A stretch of DNA of 64,000 bases from Auriscalpium vulgare. Lineage: Eukaryota > Basidiomycota > Agaricomycetes > Russulales > Auriscalpiaceae. Shown piece by piece: positions 18,458 through 44,178 of the stretch. Position numbers and translations under genes: made by a program. Where the stretch lies: assembly GCA_019915015.1 (NCBI GenBank), contig JAHBBC010000009.1, positions 124,001-188,000 on the forward strand. Direction: 5' to 3'. The notes below the pieces were generated by a model that was not told where the DNA came from, ran no database searches, and saw only the letters and a program-made list of their open reading frames with translations. How positions within the stretch are numbered: position 1 is the first letter of the stretch; each line of letters starts with the position of its first letter.

Positions 18458-18466
18458 ACGGACAGA

Positions 18467-18525
18467 GGGACTTCAGTTGGCGGAATACATTTGGCGTGTC
18501 AATTGACACAAACCAAATACATTCG
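18467..18525 (+). repeat. Left terminal inverted repeat of the KDZ element
   Basis: After 5 variable bases (GGGAC) comes TTCAGTTGGCG. This is followed by AATACATTTGG, the perfect palindrome GTGTCAATTGACAC (18496-18509), and CCAAATACATT. Relative to the right end, TTCAGTTGGCG and the 21 bases at 18503-18523 match exactly; the part between them is diverged. Confidence 0.8.
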
Positions 18526-18579
18526 GCCCTGTGTCTGAGCGCAGTCAGTCGTCGTACATGACAGCTGCGTACGGGCGCG

Positions 18580-18820
18580 ATGCATTGGTTATGGCCAAAT
18601 GCATTGGACCATGCGCAATGCATGCGTCCCGCCAAATGCATTCGTCCGACCAAATGCATTCGTCCGACCAGATGCATTCGTCCGACCAGATGCATTCGTC
18701 CTGCCAAATGCATTCGTCCTGCCAAATGCATGTGTCCTGCCAAATGCATTGGTCCTGCCAAATGCATTGGTCCTGCCAAATGCCTTCGCCCGCCAAATAT
18801 ATTCGTCTGCCAAATACATT
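18580..18820 (+). repeat. Subterminal array A: 18-base units with ATGCAT core
   Basis: Eleven perfect ATGCAT cores at 18580, 18599, 18618, 18636, 18654, 18672, 18690, 18708, 18726, 18744 and 18762, then decayed copies at about 18780, 18797 and 18814. The spacing is 18 bases (19 for the first two). The unit is CAAATGCATTCGTCCTGC with small variation; many units contain one or two CpG sites. All six frames of such an array stay open, so the apparent repeat proteins here are not genes. Likely role: multiple binding sites for the transposase (inference). Confidence 0.88.
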
Positions 18821-18866
18821 TGTCGTGCACATACAATCTAGCAGAGTCAAAATATAGTCTCCTGCG

Positions 18867-18935
18867 TCCGAATCGAACCCACGGGTTCGCGTGCACGCGT
18901 TAAGAAACACTTACCACTAGACTATCTCACTGATG
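18867..18935 (-). other. tRNA-like module, left (A box and B box, not a working tRNA)
   Basis: Minus strand: an A box TAGTCTAGTGG (18924-18914) as in tRNA-Asp/Glu, a CGCGTGCACGCG palindrome where the anticodon arm would be, and a B box GGTTCGATTCG (18879-18869) with one mismatch to the consensus. The acceptor arms do not pair and the T stem has two mismatches, so this is not a functional tRNA. It could act as an internal RNA polymerase III promoter reading outward through array A. Confidence 0.55.
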
Positions 18936-19907
18936 CAATGGCTGCTCGAACCTTCGCCACTAGCACTACCTGTAGTCAAAAAAATCAGCCGAACACCTAA
19001 AGCAAAGCACACACCCCGCCATTGAATGCGCTGAGTACGCGCTAGCGCTGCGCCAGGTCCTTGCGGGACGCGCCGTGCTGTACGTTCGTCCTGGTTTACG
19101 TTGTGCTGTACTTGGCAACTCTGCCGCTCGCAGCGCCACGCGCATGCGCACCGGGCGACGCCGCCGCCTCTCCACTCTCATCCACGCACAACCCAGCCCA
19201 GCACTGCCAGGAGACGTTGCCCAGCGCACCTGCGCCCACCAAGCAACCATGGGACGGCCCAAAAAACCCGTAGGAGGGGACAAGAAGACGCCCACGGCGC
19301 CCCGCGCGCACGGCAGCCTACCGCCGTCCCAAGACGCCACCCCGCTGCACCGCGACGGACCTTCAACAACCACCCCGAGTCAGCGTGCTACGCACGCTCC
19401 TATCTGTGCTCCACGGCCCACAGCGCGCTGACCACCTCGGCCCCAAGACGCCGCCCCGCCGCCCCGCCGCCCCCGCAGCTGCGCATCTGGAAGAGCCACA
19501 GACATATCAGTAAACCGCAAACACAAAGTCGGAGTCAATGACATACTAAACACCTCGGCAGAGTCTCTGCTTGCGGGTCCTCACGGCACAAGCAGGCAGT
19601 GGGGAAGGAAGGAGACAACCGGCAAGAAAGACGTCAGCGGAAACGGAACAAGGCGTTAGTGCGATGACGACGTACCGCGGGGCGTGTCCGGGAGAACACG
19701 CAGCACCCGCGCACGGGCGTGGTACGACGGGTGGACGAGGCGATGAGGGGCGGCCGCTGTCGGCGCCGTGAAAGTTTCGGCGAATCTCATTAGATTGGTG
19801 CACCTGATATACATATCGTCAGTGCTCACGCACTGCAGGCATTTTATGAGCAAAGAACTCGCCTTTCTCTTCTTCCTTTCTCCTCCCTACGCCAGCAGGA
19901 CACTCGC
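18936..19907. other. Cargo region without recognised gene
   Basis: Nearly 1 kb, Pro/Ala/Arg-coding in several frames because of high GC. No family recognised. Confidence 0.4.
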
Positions 19908-20590
19908 GATGTCGCATCCTCCTCACCCTCCCCTCTTTTACGCCATCTCTTGCCGTCGAGGTAAGCGGCCCTTGCACTCATTCCTAACTCGGATTTGCAC
20001 CGCTGATCACCCCAATTTCGCAGGTCCTCCCTCATGCACTGACCCTCCACCGCTTCTTCGTGCAGACCGACGGCCGCGTACGCTGCGAGCTCCGCCTGCA
20101 CCGCTGACCGCTGACCCACGCCGCCGCAGACGCACGATCTCGTCATCCGGCCGGAGGTTCCCTAGGGCCACCTGGCGCAGAAGTACACCAACACCGTCTT
20201 CGGGCGCTACACGAACCGCCTGCCCCTTCGGCGCGCACGCGACCACGCGCAACGGCACGAGCACGACCGTGCGCCCGCAGGCGAACGAGAGCCCCGCCGT
20301 CTCGCTGCACGGCGGCCCCGCGCGCTTCGACGCGGCGGCGTTCGAGCCCGTCCCGCTCGACGCGCTCGCGCCCGGCGCGGCAGGGGCGCCCGTGACGGCG
20401 GCGTCCCCGCCGGGCACGCTGTTCACGGAGGCGAGCTCGGGACGCTGCTGCCGCAGGGCGCGGGCGCGCTGTTCCGCCATGTGTCAGAGGACGGCGACGA
20501 GGGACTCCCGCGCACGCTGCTCGTGGAGGTCGTCGTGGGCCCGCTGCCGCCGAACGGGCCTGCGATGGGCGAGGGCGAGGTCTACCGCTG
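19908..20590 (+). pseudogene. Aldose 1-epimerase (galactose mutarotase) pseudogene, partial
   Basis: Conceptual translation across frames gives a run typical of fungal aldose 1-epimerases: LAVEVLPHALTLHRFFVQTDGR, then after an intron THDLVIRPEVP, a stop, GHLAQKYTNTVFGRYTNRLP, a frame change, PQANESPAVSLHGG, another frame change, and GALFRHVSEDGDEG with LLVEVVVGPLPPNG. Two intron positions (after GTCGAG near 19960 and after GGCCGC near 20075) keep normal splice signals, so this was a genomic copy and not a retrocopy. There is at least one stop (near 20164) and three frame shifts. Similarity stops at about 20590, before the C-terminal half. Probably host sequence captured by the transposon and then decayed. 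Confidence 0.72.
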
Positions 20591-22155
20591 CCACCGCGTT
20601 TTGAGCTGCCGACGCTCGTTGTCTTGCATATGCTGCATGCTGCACAAGGTACGTTCGCCTGCACCGAGCAACATACCTGGCCCAGCGTCGGTGAGAAGCA
20701 CGTACCGCATCCAATCCAACATGAGCCTGCCGGATAAGGCCAGCGGAGGCGACGCTGGCGCTGGGCAGTCGCGGCCGTCAGTCTTGGTGCGAAGACGCCC
20801 GGCGCGCCGCTTCTGTCGTCGGTATCGAGAGGTGGCCGTCCTGTGTCTGGAGAGTGCGTGGACTTGCCGCGCGGGCGAGCGCAGTCGTCGCGCAAGCGCA
20901 CGACTACCCCAGATCGCCTGGCGACGCCATTTGCGGTGCGCGTGCGTCGTCCGCCGCGGTCTGTTTGGTGAGCCTGAGAGCTAGAAACAACCGCGTGAGC
21001 CATTGACCCGTGGCGTACAGCTGCCCATGCATACCGCATACGCGATGCAGGCGCCGCGCTCGTGTATTCGCCTCTGCCGCGCAGCGCTTGATATGCTTGC
21101 ACCTTCGTTCTTGAGAGCTGGGCGGCGGGCCGAGTGGCGGCGACGGCGAGATCTCCCGTCGAGCACGTACCGAACGTCGCTGGTCATGGAGATCCCCCAC
21201 GTATTTGCAAGGACTGCGACTTGGTGCTGGTTAAGGAACAGTATGTGAGCGGAGAACAGCAAACAGCAAAGGTGGGACGGTATGAGTACATAAACTTGCC
21301 CTGTCCAAGCATGTGTCCTGCCCGCGCAATGCCTGTGCACCTGAAAATAGGGACGCGTAAGCGCGGTGGGCCACGAACAAAGGATACACGTATATGTCCA
21401 ACGCCGTCTTGTGCTCTGGACACTCGAGCTACCAGTTCACAAGCCGTCAGCCCAGCACCCGCGCAATTCAGAAAGCATAAACCCACGTCTTGAATATACT
21501 CGTGCTCTCTGTGCACGAAATTACTCCGGCCCAATCGCCTTCATGTCGTCGGCGGCATCGCATTTTCTGCACTGACGACGCCGCAGCTGATGATGCCGGG
21601 GCCTGCTCCCTCTTCCCCCGCCGCCAAGGCACGCACCACCCCGCACCACCTGCAACAACCGCTAGTCAATCAGCGCGCATCATGCAGAGTTCTCAACGGT
21701 GCGTACCGTCGGTTTTTATTCTGCACGAACTCGTCGCTTACAACTCTCCAGGGACGGACGGCGACCGTTACCAGCGCAGAAGGCCTCCAGAGGACGCCCC
21801 CCGCCGTCGTGGCCGCGCGCCACTATCAACCAAAATTCCACTCGTCTCGCGCGGCCGCATGTGCCTCATTCACGTACGGCGTGCGTGATTTTATCTCCTC
21901 GCGATGCTTTTCGGCGCTGCATGTATATATTGCGCGGCTACGGAAATTGACAAACAAATTGAAATAAACATTTACTATTCTACCTGCAAACGGGATGCGT
22001 CAGTGCGGTCGGTCACTGAACGACCAACATACTTACGTGTTGAACGCCTCAGGGACACTCGAGGTACCTGCTCACAAGTTGTCAGACCGGAACGCGAGCC
22101 ATTCTGCAAGCCCAAACGCACGTGTTGAACATATTCTGGTCCTCTGTTAACGAAT
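20591..22155. other. Region left of accessory gene 1, no intact gene
   Basis: No intact gene seen. Bases 21418-21560 are a diverged copy of 22051-22190, the 3' flank and last codons of accessory gene 1 (shared GGACACTCGAG, a ...TTGAA(T/C)ATAT... stretch and CATGTCGTCGGC), so this segment contains the remnant of a duplicated gene end. Confidence 0.45.
21418..21560 (-). repeat. Diverged duplicate of the 3' end of accessory gene 1
   Basis: Aligns with 22051-22190 with many substitutions and small gaps; the coding frame is lost in this copy. Indicates tandem duplication inside the element. Confidence 0.5.
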
Positions 22156-23643
22156 TCAGTCGAGCTCGATCACATCCATGTCGTCGGCAGCCCTCAATTT
22201 TTTCGAGGATGACGACGCAGTTGACGACGACGCTGCCGCCGCGTGCTTGCGTTTGCTGGCCCATGCCTTCCCCAGGCCAAGGACATCGGCCGCGTCGACG
22301 GCCTGCAGGACGCGCGATTTAGTCGGACGCAGCCAAGGCTGCGTGACCATCTTCGGCGGAGCCGACGCGGATATGCCTGCACCAACCCCGCGGTCGGCAT
22401 GATCGCTGTCGTCGCTGTCGTCGCTGTCTTGCACTGATACCACGCCGTCCGAGTCGTCGCCCTCCTGGTCGGTGTGCGTAGCGGCTTCACGAAGGGCCTG
22501 AGCGTTCGCCTGAGCGGTCCCCGAGGACGTGTGAGCAAACGGCGGCGGGCTGAGGAAATAGACCCCACCTTGCCAGCAGCGCGCAACTCGCGCAAGTTGC
22601 GCTGCTCCCGCAACTTGCGCAGCTCCCGCATAATCTCGGCGTTCTGCAATTTCACTCCCACCTCTTTGGCTTCATGAGCAGAGATTGTTTTCTGGACCTT
22701 CGAGCGCGCCTTCTCGGCGGCGGGATGAAACGCCTGCCCCTGACGTCAATCGACAAGGAAGAAAATCGTGGGTGAACGGTGCTTACCCCGTCAGCGGCAG
22801 ACATTGCGCGAACCTGGCGACGCAGAGACGCTGTGCCCTCCGTGATCTCCGCCAGCTTCGCCAGCCCCACTTCGAATCGCTTCTCCACCTTCGCAATTTC
22901 TTTGTCCTCCCTTTTGCGCTGTGCCTCGGCCGCATTGCTCTCCCGCTTGCGCATGGCCTCCTCCTCCTTCGCGGCTCGCAAACGCCTCCGCTTCGCCGCC
23001 TTCGCCGCCTTGGCCGTCGCGCTGTCCCGGCGTTTGACAAGTCTCTTTATCTCCCACGCCACCGCTCGCGTCCTCTTCTCCCTCGCCTTATTCGCCGCCT
23101 TCTCCGCCGCCTCTCGCGCCCGATCAGCCTTCTTCGCCGCCGCCTCTCGCGCCCGATCAGCCTTCTTCGCCGCCGCCGCCGCGCCTTTGGCATCCTGCTC
23201 GTCAAAGACATCCTGCAGCTGGATTGCGGCCATCATGCTGCGCTGCTCAGCGCTGGGTTTGCTCTGCGCCGGGGTGAAGTGAACATTGCAGGGGTGGTAG
23301 CACTGCTCAGACCGTGAGCACCACGCACACAGATGATGCGATGAAGACTCACATGGGCGGTCCAGCGGCCAGCGGCATCGCCAAAGTACCCGACCTTCAG
23401 CTGCATCTCGCGTTCGCATATATTACAAGTCGGGGTGTGAGGCATCGTGGTCTCCCCGACTTCGCGGCATACTGCCTTGAGCCGGTCGGACGCGACCTTC
23501 GTCTTGGAGGCTTCCGATGAGGCGGGCGACGCGGGCGCTGAGGCGGTCAAGGGGGACCCTGAAGTGTACACCACGGACCGCGCCTTACCACTGCTGGCCT
23601 TGCGAGGCAGGTGGCGCCGCCGCGAGGTGTCAGCGCGCGCCAT
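22156..23643 (-). CDS. KDZ-element accessory protein 1 (coiled coil), function unknown
   Basis: Four exons: 23643-23353, 23263-22787, 22739-22569 and 22509-22156, 430 aa. The N-terminal part has a lone zinc-ligand-like CNIC (C73, C76) followed by a conserved-looking GYFGDAAGRW segment. Residues about 110-230 are an Ala/Lys/Arg/Glu-rich long coiled coil with a duplicated KKADRAREAA motif. The last exon is acidic (SVQDSDDSDDSDH) and ends in a basic-acidic tail. The 59-base intron at 22568-22510 explains what first looks like a frame shift. No family recognised. Its place beside the transposase and dioxygenase genes suggests a structural or DNA-bridging partner (inference). Confidence 0.72.
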
Positions 23644-24225
23644 GACGGGGGGAAAGGAGACAGGACAGCTGGTCGAAAATGGGCGGACGCGCATGGTCCA
23701 TTTGTAGACCCCAGGGTGAAATCATCATGCCGGTTCGAACACGACGCTGTGCCCGACTGAACTGACTTGTGTTCGTCTCGACCCGCTCCTGGCCATTGGC
23801 GTCGTCTTGCCGCTCGCAGGTGAGCTCGCTTGCACCGTCAGGGTCGTGATACGCGAGGCCGTGTCGCTCGCACCACACGCCATCAGCGGCAGCAGGTACC
23901 CGGAAAACATTTGGCTCACCGCGGTGAACGAAACAGGCCGCGCGCCGTCTTGCCGTGCTCTGCGAGCACAGTCGGGCTGTTCTTCTTCCTTGCGAGATTG
24001 ACGATCACCTCACGAACTCATGCGCCCGTCAGCGCGGCGTCCGCACAAGCTTAAATCAATTAGAGACAGCATGGATCGGCGTCACTGTCCTGCGCTTCTC
24101 CGAGCTGCCCAAACGCGCATGATACCACGCCCTCAAGCCTTTTTCTGGCGCTTCACCGGTTTATCCGACCTGTCCGAAAGACGCACGTCGTTACGGCTAC
24201 CGTTAGCGGATGGGAAAACGGGGGC
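23644..24225. other. Intergenic between accessory genes 1 and 2
   Basis: About 580 bases. Should hold the promoter of gene 1 (minus strand, start 23643) and the 3' end of gene 2. No repeat or gene seen. Confidence 0.4.
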
Positions 24226-26382
24226 TCACTTTGTCGGAGCAGGCCGCTTTTCTCTCCTGTCAGGCTTGGAAGAGCTGGCCTTCGATTTACCCTTGTCGGC
24301 GAGAGCAGCTCCGTCGGTCTTGGTGGTGGTGTCCTTCTCAATACGAGGCCTTAGGTGCACCGTTAGCGAGATGTTCATCCGGCAGCTCGACGAACCAACG
24401 TACTCCTGCAGGCCAGCCGCCTTCCATGTTTGTTTGCGAGCACGCTGTGTGCGGCCACCGCTGCCGTCACCCTCAGGCGGTCCGCTCGGCGCAGCTGGGG
24501 TGAGGTCTAGCACAGTTTGAGCGCCAGCGAGGTCGTTCGACTCATTGCCTGGGGAGGACGCATTGCCCGGGGAGGACGCATTGTCTGGGGACGCTCGGGA
24601 TGCTGCTGCTGCTGCTGCTGCTGATGCCACCCGCCCTCCGCTCCCTTGCCCTTTGCGCCCTCGACCGCGTCCGCGCCCGCGTCCTCGGTCGACGGTCTTC
24701 GCAGGGCCGACCGGAGCTTCGCATTCGCTCGAAACATCCAACGCGTCTTCTTCGGCCGCCCCCCCCTTGCTCCCCTTGCCACGCCCGCGCCCGCGTCCGC
24801 GCCCGCGAGCGCGTCCACGCCCATCCGTCTTCGCAGGGGCGACCGGACATTCGTCACCGGTCGAAACATCCACTGCTTCTTCGGCCTCCCGCCCCTTGCT
24901 CCCCTTGCTGCCACCGCGACCGCGCTCGCTGGGCTTTGCGCGACCGCTCGCAGGGACGACTGGAGCTTCGTCTTCGTCCGCAACATCCGACCCTTCTTTG
25001 TTGACGTCAGCCGGGCTCGCATGACCGCCCTCTTCCTCAGACAACGAGCTGTCAGGTGTCCGCGCGCGCGATGTGTCGACATCTGATTGCAGGCGGGTGA
25101 GGTCGCCGAGCCCAACGACTTCTTTGCTCAAGGCTACGACGCCCTCCACTGTAAGGTCGCCTAAGTCTAATTCGCGCTCAGGCAGACCCGGCCTCGTTGA
25201 GCCAGTCGAGGGGCCTGACGCCCGCGCTCGACCTTAGCGCTGAGACGGCTGGAGGAAAGCTCACGTAAACGCACCTTTAAAGACATTGTTCACGTAAGTG
25301 AAGAAGGCCCTCTTCACCTCGTCGCGATCGACACCCAGTTCGCGGGCCAATCCGTCTACTGCCTTATTGCCGTCGGGTCCACTGTCCATACTAGAAACTT
25401 GCTTCAGCTAGAACGGTGATATATCAGGAGGCGTGCTCACACATGCGCGAGCACCTCATTCCCCGCGCCGACGCCCCCCAAGACGACAAAGCCGAACCAG
25501 CCTGTGTGGCGCTTGAAAGAGTCCATGGCCGCCTCCATGGTTGCCGGCAGAGCCAGCACATTGCTGTCGCAGCCCGTGACGTTAGCTGTTATCCGTCACA
25601 AACGAGCGGGATTTGACTGACCGTGACCGAACATACTCACTCACTTCGGCCTTGGGCAAGGTCGCCTCTCCTGTCGACGACGCGCTCCCAGCACCCGCGT
25701 CGTTGGCGTCAATGTCTTCGTCGTGTATCGCAGCCTCCTTGTTCGCCTCGCGAGCCTTGCATTCATATTCCTCCCGCGCCTCGGGCGAGAGTGCGTCAAA
25801 TAGCAACTTGAGGTCATGCGTGTACTCGCCCAGCTCGCTCTCAGCTCTTCCCTGCTCAACGCTGCTCCTGTACATGTCCCAAGCCGACTTTCTCTTGGCC
25901 TTCGGAAGCGCCGCTGCAGGGAACGGCAGCACGCGACTGGAGTGTCGTGCATTGTTGGGACTGATGGCGGCCAGCCAGTTATAGATCCTCTGCTCGTTGT
26001 CAATCAGAAAGGTCCATGGCGCGCACGACGTGCCCCACTCACTCTGCCGCAGGCCTTCAGCCTCGCGTCCCGCTCGGCTTCCGTCTCTGCAGGCAACCTT
26101 TCGAGCGCTTCATATCGATTCTTCCTCTTGTAACCTGCGCGGCGTTGAGCAAACGCCGCGTCAGATTCGGCAGAATGGGGCTCCTTGAACTCCAGCCGGT
26201 AGCGATCCTCGATGACGTTGCGCATGACGACCAAGGTTTCTGTCGACTTGAGAGGTCAGAAGCCCGCTCAGCGAGCACGATAGAGGCGCACCTTTCTCGC
26301 TGCGCATCTTGGTGATTTCCTGCGACGTCCACATGGCCTGAAGAAATTCTTCCTCCTCAGGCCGCCAGACTTTCTTGCCCAT
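24226..26382 (-). CDS. KDZ-element accessory protein 2 (HMG-box-like with Arg-Gly repeats)
   Basis: Six exons: 26382-26292, 26239-26043, 25989-25641, 25585-25443, 25407-25275 and 25166-24226, 617 aa in one frame. Residues about 126-195 resemble an HMG box: a basic KAKRKSAWDMYRSS start, a helical middle, then LSPEAREEYECKAREAN, matching the ...LSPEEKxxYexxA ending of HMG domains. Residues about 370-480 hold three imperfect repeats of acidic-E(A/C)PV-PAK-RGRGRG type with KGSKG, giving Arg-Gly/AT-hook-like DNA- or RNA-binding tracts. HMG-type partners of TET/JBP genes in fungal transposons have been discussed; the assignment here is from pattern only. Likely a chromatin- or DNA-binding partner acting in the nucleus. 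Confidence 0.7.
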
Positions 26383-26651
26383 GGTGAGAGGTGCGTGGCA
26401 AGGCGGGCGTGTGGCCAGGGAGAGTGCAAGAGCGACGAGGGATGTAACAAGTCAGTTTCGCGAGCCACCGCGCGCGACACCACACGACGCACCTTTGCAC
26501 ATGGCCCCCACGTCGGTGCCTGTGGGAAAATCATGGTCAGTTTGAACGCGATCGCACAGCAGTCCGGTCCCTGCTCATGCGGTACTCATGCGGTTGTCTC
26601 GGATCTCGACGACAATTTCATTGCATTACAAGTATGATACACCCTCGATCA
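26383..26651. promoter_or_regulatory. Probable promoter of accessory gene 2
   Basis: 269 bases between the stop of gene 3 and the start of gene 2, both on the minus strand. No TATA box or repeat that I can name. The promoter of gene 2 must lie here or inside the end of gene 3. Confidence 0.3.
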
Positions 26652-29198
26652 TCAGAAATAAACACCATTCTCGGGCTCCTCGCGTTGGGGAATGGACGGC
26701 GGTCGTGAGAGCGGCAGTGTAGGCATGCGTCCCTTTCGAGCGAAGAAATAACGACAGATTGCCGTGTACAGCTCCCGCTCGTACGTCTCAAGAGCGGAGG
26801 GGGCACAAGACACCGCAGGGGAAAAAGGGGGGACATCGGGGAAGTCGGGCCACGTCCTCACCAGGCCACTTAGACGGCTCACGCCTGTGTTCCGGTCCGT
26901 CCACTTGGGTGACAGCAGCCAGTCGAACCAGGCAGGGTCCGTACCGGGTTCCGTCGTGCTGACGTGACTCCACACCTTCAGCCAACTGGATTGGCGGCGC
27001 CCGAGCTCGGACTCAACGTACTCCGGGTCCAGCACGGTGCGCATCACCTCGACATCCAACCAGAGGAGGTCGAGGCGAAAGTGCATGACCGAGAGCTCCC
27101 ATGTGATCTCGCTCCACAAGGTGCGGTCCTGTCCTGCGCGCGATCGATCGACTTTCTGATTCCTCCACTTGGGCATCGGGTCCGGGTCACTGCGATACGG
27201 AGGGAACCCCATATCGACGCCGAAGTGCACGGCGATGTCGATGCGCATGACGAGGCGCTTTGCGCGAGCATGGTCCGTACGCGTCGTGGCTTTCTTCTTC
27301 TGCGACGTCTCCTGTGTCGCCTCTCGTCTCTTTCCCAGAACTGACGCCGGATTGGCGTACGGCGGAAGCCGCTTGATTTTGTCCGGCGCGGACTCGGGCT
27401 GTACGCGGGCACCGGGCGGCAGGTCGTAGTTGTGATACTGCCCATCCAATGCAAAGCGCCACCCGACCGTGGACAGGAGAATGCGCGCGTCCGCGATAAT
27501 GCCGCTGTCGGCCGTCGCGGAGAAGCATGAGTCCCGGATACGCAGCCAGTTTTGAATTTTGTCGGCCATCTTTTCGCCTGAAAAGGCGTGGAGCGGTGGT
27601 AGCCCAAACAGGACGATGCGGTTCTTGTTGTCGTCGTCCAGTCCCGCCAGCGCGTTCTCCACCTCCGCCCACAATCCGAACGTCGGCGGCAGCCATTCCG
27701 CGCGCCTCGGTGGCATGCGTGGCACCGTCGGCGCCGATTGCGCGCCGACACCGGTCTTGGCACGCTTTTTTGCTCGGCGCGCGGGCGCAACTGGTTCGGT
27801 GCTGGGCCCCGGCTCAGCGCGGGTTTGAATAGGGGGATCTGGAACCGAGGGTGATCAGTCACGATGGCCTCGCGCGGCGCGAACAATGTACCTGGCTGTG
27901 AATGCATCTCCGGCTCGTCCACGTCCGGCTCAGGTTCATGATCGGCGGCGAGCACGGGACGCGGGAGGCGAATGAACGGTTTGCTCGTGATGGAGAACTT
28001 CTTCAGTCGGTCCACAAAGCCGATGGAGGCGGTATCCAGTGTGACAGAATCGATCCACGACGGCGCGATGACCTGCGTCTTGCCGAACATCCTGCGCTTG
28101 CTCTTCGCAAAGAAGTCGGTCCAGGGCACCGGGTGCCTGACAAACCCAACCTGCGTCCGTCGCGTTATCGTGTCCAAGCGGCGCACCCACCAGACGGGTA
28201 TGCCGGCCTGATAGAATGTATTGACCATTGATATGCGCTCTGTGATGACGCCGCGCACTGGGAAAGGAGCTAGACGACGCTCGAGCTTTTGGTCCAGGGC
28301 GGGCTTCACGACTTTCATGTAAATGTACCATGCCCGGACCGCGAGGATATATCGCTGCGCCTCGCGGAACCATTGAAGGCTTTCTCCGAGACGTTGCGGA
28401 CGTGCGGTGTTCGCCACAGCGCGTAAGAGGCAGTCGATTTGGTCCGTGAGGTAGTGACGCGCCTTGACGTCTGATGCCGCGAGAGTGACTTCGGCGCATT
28501 TCAGCGCCCTGTGCGTCGCCTCGTTCGTTGCCCCGCGGAGGCGTTCGAGGACGCTGTACGAAAGACGGCCTAGGTCTTCGATGGACCACGGGTCCCGCTC
28601 CCAGTCGTTGGACGTGAAATGAAACCAGGCCGCGCCCTCGTCCCTCCACAAGTCCCAGGGAACAGATGCCTCCCCAAGCACTTTGCTGCCAGCGCGTAGC
28701 TCCGGATTGGCCGGAGCGGCGATGACGTGTGGCTCCAGGGCATCCCATACTTGCGGCCATTTGAGGTGTTCGAATGGACCGTACATGCCGTCGGTGTATA
28801 ACCCGAACTCCTCCGTGAGATGGTGCGTTGGGACATCCGGGACAAAGTCCATGTTCGGGGACGACACCCACATCTTCCCGTCAGTGTCGGGTAAGGCGGC
28901 GATGATGCGAGCATCTGAGGCCTCCGCAGACGAGGGGTCAAAGGCATCTCGGCGGGCGAGCTTGAGCACTTGGTCTGGTTTGAAGAGCGCGTCGAGTATC
29001 TCGTCGCTGAAGTCGTCATCGGCGGTGGTCGGGCCGCTGTGTTCTTCGGACCGGCCCTCCCTAGATGATTCTGTCGTCGGGAAAGTCAGCGCAGCGGTTG
29101 AAAGAGCATAAAGTGCACGCACGCAGTGTGTTGCGTGGCCGGTCCGTCGCCGAATCGGCGCGCCGCGGCGGTCTTGGGCTGTCGATGTTCTCGGGCAT
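26652..29198 (-). CDS. KDZ-element accessory protein 3, conserved-looking, function unknown
   Basis: Three exons: 29198-29123, 29070-27892 and 27838-26652, 813 aa in a single frame. The start ATG is supported by a 52-base intron with a GCTGAC branch site that joins it in frame. No catalytic motif that I recognise. Segments look well folded: PNMDFVPDVPTHHLTEEFGLY, WPQVWDALEPHVI, WFHFTSNDWERDPWS and a second half with GYHNYDLPPG-like and DPAWFDWLLSPKW blocks. Proteins with the FTSNDWERDPWS type of block are, from memory, common in basidiomycete genomes and vary in copy number, fitting a transposon gene. It lies next to the TET/JBP gene and shares an upstream hairpin motif with it. Confidence 0.75.
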
Positions 29199-33110: not shown

Positions 33111-33669
33111 CAGTGGGCGATGGCGTGTAGCGAGCGAAAGGCAGGGAACGGCAGCGCGATCACCCCCATAGAGCTGCTTTGCTAGGCAGCTCCTCTGGGT
33201 CGGTGGCCTTTTTGACGGTCTACCTGTTGGGCGGACCGGCAATCTGTGCAGCAGGCGCGACGCCATGTCTCGCCGTTGCCCATCCTACATCGTCTTCCCC
33301 CTGCCTTTGCGTTGCATGCTGGCCAGGTCCGCTCCCGCTCCATCATCAATAGTCCCACGTTATACGGAGGCTCGCGTTCGATCGCCGTATCGATGCATGA
33401 GTCGATCCACTTCACTCCCCCGACCATCAAACGGTTCGACTCCCGGTCTCATACGCCCACCGTCAGAATATAAGTCGCCTCAAGTCGCTTCCCTACCTTC
33501 TTATGCCGTAGCGTCCCCTCCATCGACACTTCCCCTCCCTCGCGCTGCACCGACATCTGCCCTATCCTGCCCATTCGTTTGCGCCTTCCCCCCGCTCTAC
33601 GCCTTCCCGCTCTTCCCTCACCTGTCCTGTGGCCTCGTGCCGCCATCTTCGCTCCCTCCCTCGTCCCCT

Positions 33670-36600
33670 ATGGCCAGCTCATCGCAACCAGGACGAGGGC
33701 GGCCGAGGCGGCGGAAGAATGTGGACGCCCAAGTGGACACGATCTCTTTTGCCACCGCTTACCCAGTCGGCGAAGGGAGCAAGCCACGCGCGTCCGCAAC
33801 CAAGTCGAGTTCGGCGCCTCCGCCTACCCGTCATAACCCATGGGCTGGGTTCCTGCCGTCCACACCACGCCTGAAGATCTCCATGCCCATCACGGCGAAG
33901 GCCAATGAATCAGACACAGACGACGAGGAAGTCAAGCCATCCCCGGCCGCCTCGTCAGCGAAGAAGGCCAAGGTCAACAACACCATAGTACGTCTCGTGT
34001 TCACCTGACCTGACCATGACATCTCACTGGAATTACAGCGTCCTTCCGAACGCATGTCCGAGTTCTTGGACAACTATGCGGTTCCTATCCACTCCGCCAT
34101 GCTTGAAGCCGAAAGCGGGCCTCCCTCCATGAGCTGTGCTGGCGCGAATTGCGCGGGTGGAACACAAGTGCACGAGGAGCTGTTCAAATGCGAGGAGTGC
34201 TTTTTCACAAGGTTTCTTTGTGCGGCATGCATCCAACGGTCACACGCCGACAACCCTCTCCATCGCATCCTCGCTTGGCGTCCGAACACTGGGTTCTGGA
34301 GGAGACACACGCTGTGCGAGGTGGGGATGGTCGTCCATTTGGGACATGATGGCGCATCGTGCTCTAACAGCACCGACAACCCCCGACACATGACGCTCGG
34401 GCTCGAGTCAGGCTTCCAGGCTGCCTCTGTCAAATTCTGCGGGTGCAGGCCGTTAGGTCGTGTGTCGGCAGTTCCACATTTCATTCAACTCCTCCGACAT
34501 GGTCTGTTCCCGGCATCGTGGCAATTCCCCAAGTCCGCTTTCTCCATCCGTCTGCACAAAACATTCCATCTCCTCAGCCTCCAAGCACAGACAAATGCCA
34601 GGGATTTCATCCTGTACCTCCGGCGGAAGACGGACAACGTCATGATGTCGACCACCCCGGTATGTCGCTCGTTGTGCGCATTTCGCTCACGTGCTGACCT
34701 CAGTCATGCAGGATCGCTATCGCGAGTTCCTGACGAGCGCGCGCGAGTTCGCGTATCTGAGGACGGTGCGCCGTGCCGGCGTGCTTCCTGTCCGCAACAT
34801 GGAAGCCGGTAGTCTCGCCGTCTTGTGCCCCGCCTGTCCGCAGCCAGACATCAACATGGACCCCCTTTGGCGCGAGCGCCCACTGCCCGAACGGTAAGTG
34901 CGAGGCTCAACTGCGCGCACACCTGACTGACTTCGCCAACAAAGATTTCTGGACGCGTTATTCTACACGATTGATGGGAATTTCCATCAGAACCAGAGAC
35001 TTAAGCCCCATGACCCCGACGACTTTCCACTCACGCTCGGCGCAGCGTATTTCGCACACGAGGAGGACTTCGCCAAGTACCAGCAGAAGCTGGGGCCTCT
35101 GGAACTGGAGGAAACAACATGCCACAAGTTCGCCGCGTTGGGCTACGGAGGTTACTGGGGCAATGTGTCGGGGACGGTTGGAGTGTCATGCGCACGGCAC
35201 ATGTTCGTGCTGCCTGGAGGTGGCGTTGACTTGCAGAAAGGCGAAAGGTGCGTCATGGCTACCCTCATGCGACGCAGAGTACTGATCAGCGTCGCAGGTT
35301 CGCCAACGTCGATTTTGCCATGGTCTCCGCGCTCCAACGATGGACGGGCTTGCTCATGCACGTGTCCGGATACGACATCAACTGCCAGTATCAGAGGAAC
35401 CTGGACAAGCGCCTCCGCGAGTTTAATATGAACACGGCGGACTTGAAGAGGCTCTTGACGGTCCTTCTGCCGATAACGCTGAGACTTGTGGGCAAATTCC
35501 ACCTGCCCGCCCATATCAAGGCTTGCCGGGCTTTCTGGGGCTTCAACAACGCACCGGGGGTGGGCCGCACGGACGGGGAGGCCTTGGAACGTCTCTGGGC
35601 CCTGCTCAACTTGATCGGTGCCATCACACGCGAGATGAATTCTGGCTACCGTCACGACAAGATCAACGACCACCACGGAGATATGAACGCGCGACGAGTC
35701 CACGGGATCGGTACGAGTCTACGATGCTTTTCTTTCATTGCAGTCGTGCTGACGTCGCCGAACCGAACAGTTAAGGCTACTGTGAAGAAGCACACCGAGG
35801 CCGTCAAGCATCACGGCAAAGTCACCCGCCATCTGGCGCTGATGGAGCGAGCGATCCCCGCAGACACGCTGTCTTCATGGATCGTAGAGAAGAGTGAATG
35901 GGAGGCGCTGGTGGTAGATCCACAAAACCATAAGAACATGTCGAACCCGTTTGATCCGCAGGACGCCAAGAGTGAGTCTGCTTGATGCTGCATCGGAGAG
36001 GCGCACTCACTTATCACACCGACCTCAGTGCCAACGCAGAACGAATTAGTGGCATCGATGACGGCCATGGGTAAAACCGCGGCAGGCACGACAGTTCGTC
36101 CTGGACTCGTCGGTGCCATTGGAGAGGGGATAGAGCTTCAGGCTGTTCGGTGAGTACACGTGTGTGGCTGCACCTTCCTCGAAGCCTGACGTGAACTGCA
36201 GGGCCGAGCTACTGTCGCGACTGGCAGATCCGTGGGAGGCGGATGCCGACGATACTATCCAGATGCTCCAAGGATTCTGGGAGCGCCTTCGGACGTGGCA
36301 AGAAATCGCCACGATCTACCTGACACCTTTCATCAACGCCGCCCTAGCGGGTGGCGCGCCGAATCCGCTCCTGGCCAGCGAGGACGACGAGGACGAGGAC
36401 GACGAAGGCGAGTTCATGGACACAGACGCTGAGGCCGGTGATGACGAAGAGGAGGCTACACCGATGGGCTCCAAGCGGGCGGCGTCCCTCGGGGGAAACT
36501 CGCAACGAGGGGCGTCGTTGGGCAAGAAGCGTGCGGCGTCGGCGGGGTCAAAGAGGGTGGGACGGTCAGTCGTGCGGCGGCCACGAAAGCGACCCAATGG

Positions 36601-37480
36601 GGTCAATTCCGACTGGGACGAGGTTGATAAGGTCGTCATCCTTCTTCCATCGAGCGTCGCCAAAGGCAAGAACGCGCAAGCAGACCTGGGGGCGGCGTGG
36701 GAAGTCGAGTATGCTCTGCGACGCGGCGAAGCCAACGACACCTTGGACAACGCTCGGAACCTTCTCATAACCGGCTACGCGCTGAAGCGCCATCGTCGAC
36801 ACGAGCACGGCCAGAAACACAACACACGCGGGAAGCGCGTTCGCGGGTTGAAGATGAAGCTACTCAACAGGGTTGTCACCAGATACCGCGCGTCCCGCCG
36901 TTGCTTGCTGCTCCTCGGTATGCCGCAGGATGATGACACGTACCGCGCGTTGAAGAACAAAGACATCAAGGCATTCACGGTGTTCACGGACGATGAGATC
37001 TTGGGCGACGGGAAGATTGAGGTGTCGTGGTTATGGGACGATCTAGGCAAACTAAGTGAAATGGATGACGACGCCGTGCAGAGTTACTGTGCAGAAGGTG
37101 CGTGTCTGACAGTGGCTTCCCTTCTCCGTCGCTGAGCTGCGACACAGCGCAAAAAGTGTACTGGTTCCGGCGGCACTCTCTTCAGGGTCGGTGGCAGGAG
37201 GAGCTTCTGCTTGTGGAGGAGGAGATGCGCCGCATTGTGCGGTTCTTTGATTACTACATCACGTCGTGGGGCAAGACCGCAGCCAAACATGACGGAGATG
37301 GATCTCCGTCCCTCGCAGCCTACGCACGCCGGTACGTTTTTCTGTCACCCACACGAACTCAGCATCGCTAAACCTGCATCGTGCTTCAGGCAGCAGTTCC
37401 GCTATCAACAATTGCGGGACGACGCTCTGTCGTCTTTCCCCTCGGAGGTCGTCTCCGGCGTCCTGTCAGCCCCATCGTAG
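33670..37480 (+). CDS. KDZ transposase with CxC2 cysteine cluster
   Basis: Transposase of the element. Ten exons: 33670-33987, 34039-34659, 34712-34893, 34945-35247, 35298-35710, 35771-35971, 36029-36149, 36202-37097, 37148-37331 and 37390-37480, 1109 aa with exact frame. The basic N-terminus (GRGRPRRRKN) is followed by a CxC2-type zinc cluster near residues 138-190 (SCAGANCAGG, CEECFFTRFLCAACIQ, HADNPLHRI) and further cysteines (CPACPQPDIN). The RNase-H-like core shows the KDZ signature: D384 in DGNFHQNQR, D501 in GYDINCQYQ and the GRTDGEALERLW block with E569/E572. The C-terminal third has an acidic linker (DEDDEGEF) and a helical end. Nothing is missing, so it should be active. Confidence 0.92.
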
Positions 37481-37689
37481 TAGTGGTACATGTACGCTAT
37501 CGTATTCCGGCGTCCTCTCGGAACTATGGCTTTCTCTCGGAGCTATATGCCCTCCGGATAAGCAGCGACGAAGACGCACTCGTAATAGTCGAGCTGCAAA
37601 ACCATGTTGGCCGTGGGCGCAGGGTGAACAGAGCAACAGAAAGGGAGGGGTCTTATTGCCTCCCGGCATCGCAACACTTGGTCTGGACG
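37481..37689. other. 3' flank of the KDZ transposase gene
   Basis: Short spacer, terminator expected. Nothing else seen. Confidence 0.35.
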
Positions 37690-38260
37690 GTGCGACCGCC
37701 ACTGGCGCGTGCACAATGCAACGTGATGGACTTCCTCGCGCGTCTTCAACGCAATGGAACGAGAACCAACACGCTGGGCGGCCGCCAATCGCTCATGACG
37801 GCCACAAAGACACCAGGGGCCGACGACAGCGACGTGGCAAGACGGCAGCGCGGCCAGGTGATCAAGGATGAGCGCGCGGCCACCACGGGCGCGCGCAATG
37901 CAACACGATGGACATCCTCGCGTGCCGAGCTGCGTTGGAGACGACAAGCAGACTGCGCGTGGGACGTCTGGACGCCGGCATCGTGCGCCTAAATTCAACG
38001 CGATGGAACGAGCTGGACGCCACCACCACGTCCCGGACATTTAACCAACACGCTGCGCGGCTGCCAGTCGCTCACGAAGGCCACACAGACGCCAGGCGCC
38101 GACGGCGGCGAAGTGGCGAGACGGCAGCGCGGCCAGGCCGGGAAGGACGAGCGCGTGGAGCTGGGCGCAGGCCTCGCGCGGTCGTTGCGAGCGAGTCGTC
38201 CTGCAAGCGCGCGGCCACCACGGCGACAACATCTCAGGCGGGCATCGGCAAATGGCACGA
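37690..38260. repeat. GC-rich tandem repeats, unit about 280-300 bases
   Basis: Two long units. Shared blocks include CAACGCAATGGAACGAG / CAACGCGATGGAACGAG, CCAACACGCTG(G/C)GCGGC, AGACGGCAGCGCGGCCAGG and GCGCGCGGCCACCACGG. Open frames across them are by-products of base composition. Confidence 0.65.
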
Positions 38261-38279
38261 TGGAGGAGCTGGACGAGCA

Positions 38280-38760
38280 GCTGGACGCGGCTCTCGCAGG
38301 CTGGACGCCGCCAGTCTCGCGGGCAGCGCCAGCAGGCATCGTGCGCTGGGTGCGAGCGAGTCGTCTAGGGCGTGGAGGAGTCCTGCCAGCGCCGCGCAAC
38401 GACGTGCACCTCCCAGGACGATTCCTGCGCGTCGGAAGCGCGCAATGCACGAGCTGGCGCACCGCGCGGGAGGCGCAGGACAACGATGGTGCGCCCGAGG
38501 CGACGAGAAGACTACGCACCGGGCGGTCAAGATGTCTGGGACGAGGTGGACAGCGCCATCGTGGACGCACGCGGGTGAGTCCGCCTAGGGCGTCCGCGAT
38601 GGAGGAGCCGGACGCGGCTCTGGCATGCTGTACGCCATGGCATGCTGGACGCCAGTCTTGCGTGCTGGACGCGGCTCTTGCCCGCTGGACGCCGCGCACT
38701 CTGGACGCCGCGCACTCTGGATGCCGCGCATGCTGGACGGGGCTGTCGCACGGCGGGACA
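38280..38760. repeat. Short GC-rich repeats with CTGGACGCCG core
   Basis: A CTGGACGC(C/G) core recurs at irregular 12-40 base spacing, densest at 38640-38745, with CGCGCACTCTGGACGC repeated directly. No gene supported. Confidence 0.55.
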
Positions 38761-39344
38761 CCGCCACTCTCGCGCGCAGTCTCGCGGGGAGCCCCAGCAA
38801 GCGTCTCGAACGGCAGCAAGCCGTACAAGAATGCCGGCTGCGCCATCGTGGACGCACGCGGGGGAGTCGGCCTGGGGTGGCGTGCCTAACCGTGAGGCTA
38901 ATATTCTCTGCCGTCGAGGACAGACAGGCTAACTGCTATCGGCGTCTATACGAGCACGCACGCGCGACGTTCGTATCAGTGGCTAAGGAGGTAGTGCAGT
39001 CTTTTGTGGCTTAATACACGGTTGGCAGCGCTGTCGTTCTGGAAGCAAAAAAGACTCGTGCGCTTGTGGACAGTCGTATGAACACTTTGAGAGTGACGGT
39101 GCTCTAAACTCGGGAATGTCCGCGGGGAAGGGCACGGGGCGTGCGACGGCGAAAAAGTCGCTGGCAAGAAAACAAGAAGATCACACAGAAACATGCGCGC
39201 ACATCCTCGCCAGGACGCGCGCATACCTCGAGACTCGATGCGCTGAAGCTGAAGGAAGAGGTCAGTGTCCGGTTCTTGCCTGGCAATATGCGGGGTGGAC
39301 TCACATAGAGCTACGCAGTGTCGGCCACGCTCCGCTACACCGCG
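38761..39344. other. Spacer with a weak plus-strand exon candidate
   Basis: A short frame from the ATG at 39116 (MSAGKGTGRATAKKSLARKQ) ends at a good GTCAGT donor near 39260, but I can find no convincing next exon. GGCTAA motifs recur near 38897, 38928 and 38983. Confidence 0.3.
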
Positions 39345-39995
39345 CTACTGCCCGCCTCGCCGACCTCGCCAACCGGCCAGCTTACCGCGCACCGCCCTTA
39401 TACCCCGCCGAGAGCGACCCACGGTGACTACGCGCCCTGCCAGAGCACGCACGGCCCCTAAAGCTTGCACTCCGATTACCCGTGCCGCCGACATACCCCG
39501 CTGCGTGATAGCGCGCGCGGCGCCTGTCGCGCGAGCGACGGTGCGCCTGTGCTCCGCACGCGCCGGGCTGGTAGCGGTACCGGGGACGGGCGGGTTTGCG
39601 CTGGGCTCCGGGTCGTGCGTGACCGCGCTGCTGGAGCTCGAGGCGCTCGCAGACGAGCCCGACGTGCGTGCGCTGGCTGCGCTGGTGTTCGAGGTGGCCG
39701 GCGAGGCAGCGCTGGACGATACGCTGCCGGCCGTCGTGGTCGATGTCGTGGTGGCGGTGGTAGTTGCCCGCCCCGAGACGGCGTCCTCGTTCGAGGCGTG
39801 TTCGGGCGTGGCCAGCCTGCCTGGGATGCTGAGGGACGGCGCGCGCGTCGCGGCGCTGGACCACTTGGCGCTGCTTGACGACGAGCGCGGCGTGGAAGGC
39901 CTGCTGCACGGGGGAGCGGGGTTTTCGGGCGATGTCGCGCGGGATGGAGCGCGCGCGTTCAAGTCGTGCTGAGGGGCGCGGCCTGGCGGTTCCAT
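39345..39995 (-). CDS. Ser/Thr/Ala-rich hypothetical protein
   Basis: Open frame of 216 aa from the ATG at 39995. Low complexity: SRPSTPRSSSSSAKWSS, a Thr-rich ATTTATTTSTTTAG stretch and Ser/Ala runs, then a basic Val/Arg/Gly end. No family recognised. Codon content is strongly GC-driven and the plus strand is also open here, so it may not be a gene. Confidence 0.3.
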   Translation of the reverse strand: MEPPGRAPQHDLNARAPSRATSPENPAPPCSRPSTPRSSSSSAKWSSAATRAPSLSIPGRLATPEHASNEDAVSGRATTTATTTSTTTAGSVSSSAASPATSNTSAASARTSGSSASASSSSSAVTHDPEPSANPPVPGTATSPARAEHRRTVARATGAARAITQRGMSAARVIGVQALGAVRALAGRVVTVGRSRRGIRAVRGKLAGWRGRRGGQ

Positions 39996-42190
39996 GGTGC
40001 GGCTCGTGAGAGCCGGCACTGTGACTTTCGCGCGAGGGACGTTCGCGCGGCCGTTGCGGTCGTCTGCGTCGACGGTGCTGTGCCGCAATGGTGCGGTGAT
40101 TCCACAGGCTGGCGGTGGTTGAACAGGCTGACGGTGGGAGGAGAGGTGGTGGTGGGGTAGGAAACGGACAGCCGCACCTGCTCTGCAGAACAGAAGCAGG
40201 CCGCGCGCGACGCGCACAAGCCAGCGAACGCGGGGCCGCGGGCGGCGCGCGATTGGGCACGAAGCGACGAGTGGAGGGAGGCTCGCGTGAGCTGGCGCGC
40301 TGAGGGCAGGGCGAAGAACGTACAAGCTGCAGGCAGGGAGGTCAGTGTGTGCGATGGGATGGAACATAGAAGAACAGACGCACCTAGTGCACCCAAGGAA
40401 AGAACGCGCGTTAATTGGTTGGCGGCAGCGCGCGTGGTTATGAGCCTGAGCGGAGGGAGGCTGCAAAGGGAAGGTACGCGGTGGAATGCAGAGGGAATGG
40501 ACGGACGCACCTGCTCTGCGAAACAGAACAATGCGAGGCGAAGAAGTACGCACGCGAGTTCAAGGACTGAAGAGGAAAGGGCGACAAACGGTATGTCAGT
40601 TTTCCGCGCAGTATCTGGAGTGTGCTGTACTTACGCACTGCGAGTAGGCCAATGAGCCGCGGCGCAGTTTTGCTGTGCTCTGATCGACTGCTTCCGCCGA
40701 CTCGTCGTCTTGCAAGGAGTAGACGGAGGCGGAAGGAGATGGGGGTGGCAGTTGGAGGAAGGACGGGTCGCTTGTTGAGGGCAGGCGAGCTGACTTGAGG
40801 CCACCGCTATCTGCGGCGGCCTGGCCTGCCTGTGGTGCGTCCCAAGCGAGTCGAGCGACTTGCGCGGTCGAGCTGGTGCGTGCGTCGTGTGTCTGCTTCA
40901 TCTAGCTGACCTTGCTATTCCCAGTGCGCCACGATCGAAAGGATGGAGACGGTTGAGCAGCTGGCGCGGTCGAGCGGGTGCGTGCTCCTCCATGACTGTC
41001 TGCGCCTCGCTGACCTATCTTTCCCTCTGCACGACTCGAGCCACTGGGGAGGTCACCCCGGTGGGTGTACCGTGCAGCTCCATCGTCTCGAGGTGGTGCG
41101 TGCATCTCTTTCGCAGTCTTCTTCTCGCTGACCATTCTTGCACGCAGCAACAAGATCTCTGGCAACGCTCGAGCAGCTCGCGCGGTCCCACCGGCGACGC
41201 CGCGCCCACGAGAGAACGACGCCACCGTGATCGTCCGTCGCCCGTCATGCAAACGCAAGCCGCGCCCGACGACGCTGGACCCGCCGCACAGGCCTCCTGC
41301 CCACGTCAAGCCGTCCAACCAACGGACCGCAGACTGCGCACACGCAGCACGCGCGGCCTAAACGGTCCCTATCAGGCGTCCACGGAAAAGCCGCCGCCGC
41401 GCGCCGTGTCTGCGCTGCCATCGAGCGTGGACTGCGTCTCTTCGATGCCAGCTTTTCTGCATTGTAAGTCTATCTACCGTCGTGCCGACAATGCGCTCAT
41501 CTTTGTGTGGCAGGCAGGGCATGCAAACCGCGCGCAAATTGTGCGGCAGCCAGGGTCCGTCGTCTGCGAATTTGGATTGTAGGGACCAGGCATACAACGG
41601 CCGACTTGTGGCGCCACCGCGCAGCGTGTGCTCAAGGAGATGCGGCATGGTGAGTCTCGCACATTTTCCCGTAGCATTACTGCACGCCCAAGACGACAAA
41701 CTTCATTCTCGAATCTCGCCTCCATGCTCACATTCGCCCTCGCACGACCTACTCCCTACTCTATGGCTCGGCATTGTGCACCACAATGCCACGAAGCGGC
41801 CCACAAGTCACCGTCGCCTCTGGAAGTACGCCCTCGCCGTGTACTTGTGGCCGATGCTGACGTCGGAGTCGGGCGATGCGCTCGACGAGCGCTGTGCTCT
41901 CTGCCGCGACCGCTGCTACTCGACGCTGATCGCACGAACAACGGCCGAGACCATCAGCGCACCACGAAGGCTTCAAGACAAGACAAGTCCATCGACGCCA
42001 GCCCTGTCATGTACCTCGGCTACGTCGTCACGAAGCCGCAAGATGAGCAATGTGCGTACCTTCCGTGTTCGTTTTACGTTGAAAGCGCTCACCGTCTTGC
42101 GTTTCTGGGGTTGCTGTGCAGAACGATCTCATGGTTACAGAGGGCTCGAACACGGAGGCGGACGTCGCGATGCGCGAGGCATCGGATGCG
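39996..42190. other. Right cargo region, no gene recognised
   Basis: Upstream repeats of a CGCACCTGCTCTGC(A/G)-(A)ACAGAA type occur near 40172 and 40508. Between 40850 and 41170 a segment (GCGCGGTCGAGC(G/T)GGTGCGTGC, then CTAGCTGACC/CTCGCTGACC) is repeated three times and looks like duplicated short introns with their borders. Open frames on the plus strand around 41480-42190 resemble nothing I know. Confidence 0.4.
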
Positions 42191-42204
42191 CTAGGCTCAG
42201 GCAA

Positions 42205-42438
42205 ATGCATCTGGCGGAGGCAAATGCATCTGGCACGGGCAAATGCATCTGGCGGAGGCAAATGCATCTGGCACGGGCAAATGCATCTGGCTCAGGCAAA
42301 TGCATCTGGCACGGGCAAATGCATCTGGCGGAGGCAAATGCATCTGGCACGGGCAAATGCATCTGGCTCAGGCAAATGCATCTGGCACGGGCAAATGCAT
42401 CTGGCTCAGGCAAATGCATCTGGCACGGGCAAATGCAC
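42205..42438 (+). repeat. Subterminal array B: 19-base units with ATGCAT core
   Basis: Twelve perfect ATGCAT cores every 19 bases from 42205 to 42414, and a thirteenth with ATGCAC at 42433. The unit is CAAATGCATCTGGCACGGG. Spacers alternate strictly: every second unit has CACGGG, the others CGGAGG or CTCAGG, giving a 38-base higher-order unit repeated six times. Confidence 0.92.
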
Positions 42439-42531
42439 CTGGATGAAGGTGAGGGCTCTTGTGGGATAACAGCGTATGTGGGAGGGTCTGCTTGAGGTGC
42501 ATATGACTAATTAAAAGCCTAACATAATATC

Positions 42532-42610
42532 TGCCCAGTGGCTAACCGGTTACTGCGTCTCGAAGTCATTTGCATGACGTGTGTCGTGGGTTCGAATCCC
42601 GCTCTTTGCA
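42532..42610 (+). other. tRNA-like module, right (A box and B box, not a working tRNA)
   Basis: A box TGGCTAACCGG (42539-42549), a GTCAT-TTGC-ATGAC hairpin where the anticodon arm would be, and a consensus B box inside a good T arm (GTGGG-TTCGAAT-CCCGC, 42586-42602). The presumed acceptor strands (TGCCCAG and TCTTTGC) do not pair. It points right, towards the terminus, and array C starts about 30 bases downstream. It mirrors the left module. Confidence 0.6.
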
Positions 42611-42641
42611 CATATTTTGCGATCACGTGGGTGAGAGCCAA

Positions 42642-42765
42642 ATGCATTGATCACGGCCAAATGCATTGATCACGGCCAAATGCATTGATCACGGCCAAAT
42701 GCATTGATCACGGCCAAATGCATTGATCACGGCCAAATGCATTGATCGCGGACAAATGCATTAGC
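42642..42765 (+). repeat. Subterminal array C: 19-base units with ATGCAT core
   Basis: Seven ATGCAT cores at 42642, 42661, 42680, 42699, 42718, 42737 and 42756, exactly 19 bases apart. Unit GATCACGGCCAAATGCATT; the spacer differs from arrays A and B but is nearly uniform inside this array. One CpG per unit. Confidence 0.92.
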
Positions 42766-42824
42766 CCACTGCTTCGCACAGTGTCTGTTGCTGGTAAATG
42801 GGCTTGTGTGTGTTGACACGACAT

Positions 42825-42883
42825 AATGTATTTGGTTTGTGTCAAAACACAGGTGCAATGCATTGCGCCAACTGAATATCTAC
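42825..42883 (-). repeat. Right terminal inverted repeat of the KDZ element
   Basis: 42825-42845 is the exact reverse complement of 18503-18523, and CGCCAACTGAA at 42866-42876 of 18472-18482. The end holds a second ATGCAT core (42859) and 7 variable terminal bases (TATCTAC) before the right duplication. Confidence 0.8.
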
Positions 42884-43270
42884 ACGGACAGAAGCGCACG
42901 TGTGCCAACCCGCGAGAAGACTTCTGCCAGCCAGTTCTGCGACAACATGTCGAAGCTGATCTTGGCCCACAGCGCTGGGTTGTCCAAAGCAACCTGGAAA
43001 AGAATCAGCCAAGCTCGCTCACAGCAGGGTGGTAGCAGCAGACAGCCCGACACGCACCAGTCGCCAGCGTCGGCATACATGTGTAACGATTATCCAACCC
43101 AGTTCGAACGATGTCGAATATATGAAATTCTTCATTCGGTAACGTGGAGGGTCGATAGAGGCCAGATAATGAAAGATGCGAGATATGATTTCCGGTGGGA
43201 TCAAGCTACCCGGCGACCGCGAGGTATACGAGTCGACAGAATCGTCGGCGACCGTCTCTGACGATTCCAT
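42884..43270 (-). pseudogene. F-box gene, N-terminal part (split by the KDZ transposon)
   Basis: Start ATG at 43270, exon 43270-43058, a 64-base intron, then exon from 42993 to the junction. It encodes the F-box (SLIPPEIISRIFHYLA), HVCRRWRLVALDNPALW and the start of the next block (LAEVFSRVGTRALLSV). The frame meets a stop just inside the transposon. Bases 42884-42892 (ACGGACAGA) are the right target-site duplication. The rest of the gene is at 18457-16780. A truncated F-box-only protein of about 110 aa could still be made. Confidence 0.88.
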
Positions 43271-44080: not shown

Positions 44081-44178
44081 GACCGTGACACGCCCGCGCT
44101 GTACCTCTCGCAATCGCTGCTTCGCTCCCAGCGTTCACGGCCGACTCGACACGTTCATACTCTCAATATACTCTCAAG

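Follow-up and report, generated by a model that had tools for sequence, protein, structure and literature searches.

A KDZ-superfamily transposon with a TET/JBP dioxygenase gene, exact borders and a 7-bp target duplication within an F-box gene of Auriscalpium vulgare

Elements of the KDZ superfamily that bear a TET gene and make 7-bp target duplications are a known kind of transposon, published in 2025 under the name Kyakuja. The survey of TET-bearing transposons by Kojima (2025; PMC12730594), in the parts of its text covered here, reports termini and duplications for many families; Kyakuja-1_LB and Kyakuja-2_LB of Laccaria bicolor have 7-bp duplications and 5'-CA..TG-3' termini with no terminal inverted repeats (TIRs), and TET-positive Kyakuja is the only such lineage given for Russulales. 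The element described below lies in a stretch of 64,000 nucleotides from Auriscalpium vulgare (the window; C9:124001-188000, on contig JAHBBC010000009.1 of the 51.6-Mb genome assembly GCA_019915015.1), and its coordinates are given as window positions. It occupies 24,419 bp (18465-42883, + strand) within an F-box gene. We hold with high confidence that it is a cut-and-paste DNA transposon that belongs to the KDZ superfamily and carries a TET/JBP dioxygenase, that it has moved recently and that it is probably autonomous.

With TET-positive Kyakuja the element has in common a KDZ transposase and an AG-type TET in Agaricomycetes, as well as 7-bp duplications. While the elements of L. bicolor have CA..TG termini without TIRs, the present one has G..C termini (ends GAGGGAC and GTAGATA) and, 7 nt further in, an imperfect inverted repeat of 61 nt. 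Since the ends differ and an inverted repeat is present, it is filed here under KDZ, and Kyakuja is taken only as the closest lineage described. The inset repeat, the G..C termini and arrays of the motif AAATGCAT, which with almost no exception point the same way at the two ends, are departures from the published text. KDZ1, KDZ2 and KDZ3 of Cryptococcus (PMC12810828) likewise have a KDZ transposase that includes a cysteine cluster, show inverted repeats as well as target duplications, and provide a case of insertion into a gene; in the passages covered they measure ~9.2 to 11 kb, have TIRs of 139-241 bp, show duplications of 8 bp (KDZ1) or 4-8 bp (KDZ2, KDZ3) in new insertions and carry CxC1, and no TET is mentioned there. 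Going by the parts covered of other reports, the load of Dileera families varies in Marasmius (PMC9674265), TIR motifs of the KDZ and Plavaka elements of that genus have been characterised (PMC8290104), and Pleurotus contains 36 KDZ-type transposons in which CxC2 precedes the intact ones (PMC7641404). The Starship giant transposons of Ascomycota are also large fungal elements with genes beyond transposition but, as far as they were covered, depend on a tyrosine recombinase and carry a much larger cargo. A first-pass annotation of this DNA had stated that borders of such elements are rarely defined; this was overstated, since PMC12730594 and PMC12810828, in the parts covered, report both ends and duplications. 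Our literature search, with figures and supplements outside its scope, brought no description of the present family to notice, and no claim is made that the family is unpublished.

Borders of the element and the interrupted F-box gene

The left end of the element reads GAGGGACTTCAGTTGGCG and the right end, as reverse complement, GTAGATATTCAGTTGGCG. The nine bases ACGGACAGA are present at both 18458-18466 and 42884-42892, and had initially been read as a 9-bp target duplication. To place the borders by comparison with sister copies, the exact 11-mer TTCAGTTGGCG was searched genome-wide, a procedure that leaves copies with an altered 11-mer outside the search, so that copies may be missed. It has 53 sites in the genome, compared with 23 for a reversed control pattern. 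The 611-bp stretches around the 51 sites outside the window, read inward, comprised 18 left ends (starting with GAGGGAC and containing the AAATGCAT motif), 15 right ends (starting with GTAGATA) and 18 other sites; counting the two in the window, 35 of the 53 sites are therefore element ends. Seventeen of the other sites lack the outer seven bases, while the remaining one (L040) matches five of the seven (GAAAGAC) and lacks the array motif. The ends combine into 16 pairs, leaving three left ends (on C20, C28 and an inner one on C25) with no exact right partner. A 7-bp duplication flanks 14 of the 16 paired copies exactly and the other two (C13:516k and C23) with one mismatch, each copy having its own; when the pairings were reshuffled 10,000 times, exact 7-bp duplications numbered 0.9 on average and never more than 6. 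The base next to the duplication agrees in only four pairs of 16 on one side and six of 16 on the other. Because the seven outside bases match within pairs and the next base mostly does not, the duplication in the window is ACGGACA (18458-18464 and 42884-42890) and the element runs from 18465 to 42883. The additional GA at 18465-18466 is part of the conserved left end GAGGGAC in the sister copies; these two bases are the element's own first bases, which the right flank matches by chance. The nine-base duplication was thus rejected as two bases too long, a correction that leaves the sequence of the empty site unchanged. The initial proposal of a large element with exact borders in an F-box gene held, and the copies expected elsewhere do have the same end bases and different duplications, at a length of 7 rather than 8-9 bp. 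Zisupton elements have 8-bp target duplications. The same length is reported for Dileera in the part of PMC12730594 covered. In the 16 paired copies of the present family the length is 7 bp, with one mismatch in two of them.

The inverted ends that had been noticed at the outset belong to the 61-nt repeat, which lies 7 nt inside each end (18472-18532 on the + strand, 42816-42876 on the - strand) and is 79% complementary between the two.

The interrupted gene is on the - strand. Its 5' part (42891-43270) consists of exon 1 (43270-43058), a 64-nt intron (43057-42994) and the start of exon 2 (42993-42891); its 3' part, to the stop, covers 16780-18464 according to the translation of the joined frame. 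Removal of the element and of one copy of the duplication joins three pieces: exon 1 with 213 nt, a piece of 110 nt made up of 42993-42891 and the 7-nt site, and 1678 nt that run to 16780 and include the stop. An unbroken frame of 667 codons had been claimed, and this is what was found: 666 codons and a stop, reading LLSVAIHPT across the join. In the joined protein, residues 1-305 give a match to F-box-like PF12937 (2.5e-9). As the gene stands, with the intron spliced, it would yield 108 residues and then a stop at the first bases of the element. Homologues continuous across the join exist. The paralogue L096 aligns at 72% over the full joined length, and the alignment of L097 falls into two pieces (63% and 71%); both have a single target copy in the DNA around the target, with 164 and 143 identical columns out of 198, respectively. 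The A. vulgare proteins P0129 (68%) and P0130 (63%) are continuous as well, while P0128 (89%) begins only past the join, at residue 188, and is uninformative on the empty site. On the paralogue at C9:75851-77945, the matches of the two flanks overlap by 7 bases and nothing lies between them; this overlap says nothing about the length of the duplication, since both queries contain it.

Genes, arms and subterminal arrays

The transposase gene (33670-37480, + strand) has several introns and specifies ~1,100 amino acids, its 3' end being placed by homology; the A. vulgare protein P0008 maps onto it at 33670-37477. A CxC2 cysteine cluster (4.4e-25; 88 bits, cut-off 27) precedes the KDZ catalytic domain (PF18758, 1.7e-27; 97 bits, cut-off 26.6; 144 bits in P0008). 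The model is 96% identical to its closest A. vulgare protein over 99% of the query; it contains a stretch of 20 residues absent from P0008, which is probably an intron, and its end also differs. The open transposase frame includes YTIDGNF, GYDINCQ and DGEALERLW, which are candidates for the DDE catalytic residues. The TET/JBP gene (30420-31406, - strand) was modelled with three exons and 294 amino acids, its start being uncertain (Tet_JBP, 3.2e-14, 52.9 bits). Its protein matches the CcTet structures 7vpn and 8jkk at ~2e-15 and carries HxD and the equivalents of Gly331 and Asp337 of CcTET (HQDDKGCLAGLD, aligned to HRDTSGPIEGMD of CcTET), the G and D positions that Kojima 2025 (PMC12730594, parts covered) names for 5-methylcytosine and N6-methyladenine. 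The KDZ, CxC2 and Tet_JBP matches all sit in open frames, in agreement with the transposase and TET/JBP genes first annotated here.

Behind TET, on the same strand, is a third gene (26652-29060, -) with two modelled exons, encoding a conserved protein; its start is uncertain, the 705-residue A. vulgare protein P0001 starting at 28873. A search that scored only candidates sharing most words gave seven homologues, six of them named (Auriscalpium, Artomyces, Hericium, Amylocystis) and one unnamed. The open reading frame (ORF) is 94% identical to the closest A. vulgare protein over 45% of the query, and a Pfam scan of P0001 returned no match. The training set for codon usage included three window ORFs later recognised as retroelement ORFs, which is why the models of the transposase and of the third gene were compared with proteins of A. 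vulgare.

Two arms surround the genes, and neither gave a gene model. The left arm (18861-26650) had no Pfam match in the ORFs tried and a weak codon-usage signal at ~22.8-23.2 kb; its part from 20500 to 26600 is confined to the six full copies of the element described in the next section, except for one 103-bp match on C10. The right arm (37481-42190) had no Pfam match above cut-off in the ORFs tried and a weak codon-usage signal at ~39.6-40.6 kb on the - strand; its last ~530 bp are common to short copies, and scattered short matches of 69-87% occur on C12 and in other places. The Pfam scan took in 47 element ORFs (some overlapping), where 119 of at least 100 amino acids exist. Within this scope host-gene cargo in the arms was rejected, KDZ, CxC2, CxC1 and Tet_JBP being the only matches above cut-off, with one XPB_C match below it.

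Arrays of short units containing CAAATGCAT lie near both ends: 18-nt units on the left (18594-18828, + strand) and 19-nt units on the right (42194-42762, + strand). The whole window contains 26 matches to CAAATGCAT (0.46 expected), every one of them on the + strand: seven belong to the left array and 19 to the right arrays. The arrays are thus direct, not inverted, at the two ends, in full as in short copies, with rare exceptions. AAATGCAT occurs in the inward sense only in all 18 left ends fetched, and in the outward sense only in 14 of the 15 right ends fetched, the remaining one (L026) showing none in the stretch read; seven of nine whole copies have no reversed unit, while C13:404k and C13:527k have one each. 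Plant CACTA/En-Spm elements are functionally alike in combining short inverted ends with many subterminal short repeats that serve as protein-binding sites. They differ in belonging to another transposase group and in having shorter duplications, CAC..GTG ends and repeats in both directions.

Copies of the element and the weighing of explanations

Six copies are full (that of the window, C8:1567k, C9:480k, C13:404k, C13:527k and C14:935k), with lengths of 24,414 to 27,821 bp; one of them contains an extra 3.4 kb. Their alignment has, besides indels, 39 substitution columns, 29 of them in the terminal arrays and 10 in the intervening 23.3 kb, so that the arrays vary much faster than the rest of the element. 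Between pairs of full copies, substitutions number 0 to 27 and gap events 3 to 14 (2 and 8 between the window copy and C9:480k). Five of the six agree fully in the modelled exons of the three genes, while C13:404k has an indel of one base within an exon of the transposase. The remaining ten paired copies measure from 969 bp (two copies) to 16.3 kb. The three longest, on C17 (15.5 kb), C33 (16.3 kb) and C13 (C13b, 10.3 kb), were considered as cargo-bearing relatives and rejected, being short copies that enclose other DNA. Only the insert of C13b was identified: at C13:516100-526370 (L085, L086) a Plavaka element with CATCA..TGATG ends, with a Plavaka match at C13:519201, is nested in the short copy. 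The short copy at C33:362460-378757 (L094, L095) encloses an insert of 14.4 kb, whose ends are TGATGGG / TGAGATG and which probably made a 7-bp duplication, TCACCGT. The short copy at C23:383613-388923 has a separate member of the third-gene family ~600 bp away.

Exact ends are common to the copies of the element, its paired insertions show 7-bp duplications, and its three genes are open. Six full copies are near-identical, shorter derivatives retain these ends, and the F-box gene that is split has continuous relatives. Could the element be mobile only with the help of another KDZ source, TET and the third gene being passengers? The genome has at least 168 KDZ matches from which such help might come; however, five of six copies agree fully in their modelled transposase exons, and no second family was found among the 53 exact TTCAGTTGGCG sites, where families with a changed 11-mer would escape, and we regard dependence on a helper as unlikely. 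A composite origin, in which the original KDZ element was the gene part only and the arms came from later insertions, would fit with arms (~8 kb and ~5 kb) that gave no gene model, and nested insertions are known in the family, as in the three copies of 10-16 kb and the full copy with the extra 3.4 kb. Nevertheless, all six full copies share these arms and end in their own 7-bp duplications, which makes this origin very unlikely and means that, whatever its history, the whole unit now moves together. That the near-identical copies are segmental or assembly duplicates instead of transposition products has an almost negligible probability: C13:404k and C13:527k do share a contig and differ by zero substitutions and 3 gap events, but all 16 paired copies, these two included, lie in different flanks with different duplications.

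Some points weigh against the reading of a recently transposed, autonomous element. Recent activity would follow from the copies, transposition itself being unobserved. An orthologous empty allele was not found, the continuous relatives of the F-box gene being paralogues or their A. vulgare counterparts. The predicted structure of the third protein is poor, its mean predicted local distance difference test score (pLDDT) of 54 being too low for a fold search. There is also no clear sign of decay through methylation that TET might counteract, since the CpG observed/expected ratio is ~0.95 to 1.26 across the element, its flanks and the other stretches measured; depletion was seen only in the 569-bp right array (0.69), where the repeat unit itself fixes the composition.

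In the transposition mechanism we propose, the KDZ transposase would recognise the 61-nt inverted repeats, and perhaps the arrays too, and would cut the target with a 7-nt stagger, insertion following. The TET protein, whose activity is predicted from its sequence, may oxidise methylated DNA on the element and so help it escape silencing, as Kojima has proposed, and the third protein may act as an accessory factor. A bolder extension, which we consider doubtful, is that the one-way AAATGCAT arrays, set against inverted repeats that face each other, give the element a built-in direction: the third protein and/or the transposase would bind the arrays and mark the left and right ends differently, while TET would keep methylation away from these ends and from the promoter region that lies between the divergent genes, making up a three-part, self-reactivating transposition system.

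Related loci, neighbouring sequences and significance

A second family of KDZ elements that bear TET is present at C10:111-126k, C18:864-879k, C53:83-107k and C6:163-185k. Going by coordinates it has the same three genes, the third gene included, all on one strand in the C10 copy, and its TET match on C53 is below cut-off; a sister-type KDZ copy at C8:942k has neither TET nor the third gene in the matches listed. The third gene gave 54 matches, grouped by hand into 27 loci, of which 10 accompany a KDZ gene (the six full copies and four of the sister family). The idea that it is a strict partner of KDZ was rejected, as the other 17 loci have no KDZ gene in the same element among the KDZ matches listed.

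Close to the split gene is another F-box-like gene (13196-14857, + strand; PF12937, 9.3e-11), and two paralogues of the split gene are on the same contig. Upstream of the split gene, the region 43466-59600 contains retroelement ORFs, Copia-like by their domains at 44179-49058 and Gypsy-like at 50518-56818, and an exact 257-bp direct repeat is found at 43734-43990 and 59339-59595. This arrangement suggests that one retroelement may be nested in another.

The TET genes of fungal transposons are thought to counter silencing, a function that lacks experimental validation according to the part of Kojima 2025 covered (PMC12730594). The present family offers ready parts for testing it, since its ends are exactly defined, five of its copies have intact modelled genes and two of its short copies measure 969 bp. 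A candidate for a further component is the third gene, which also occurs in the second TET-bearing KDZ family of the genome. In the split F-box gene one can see what such an element does to a gene of its host.

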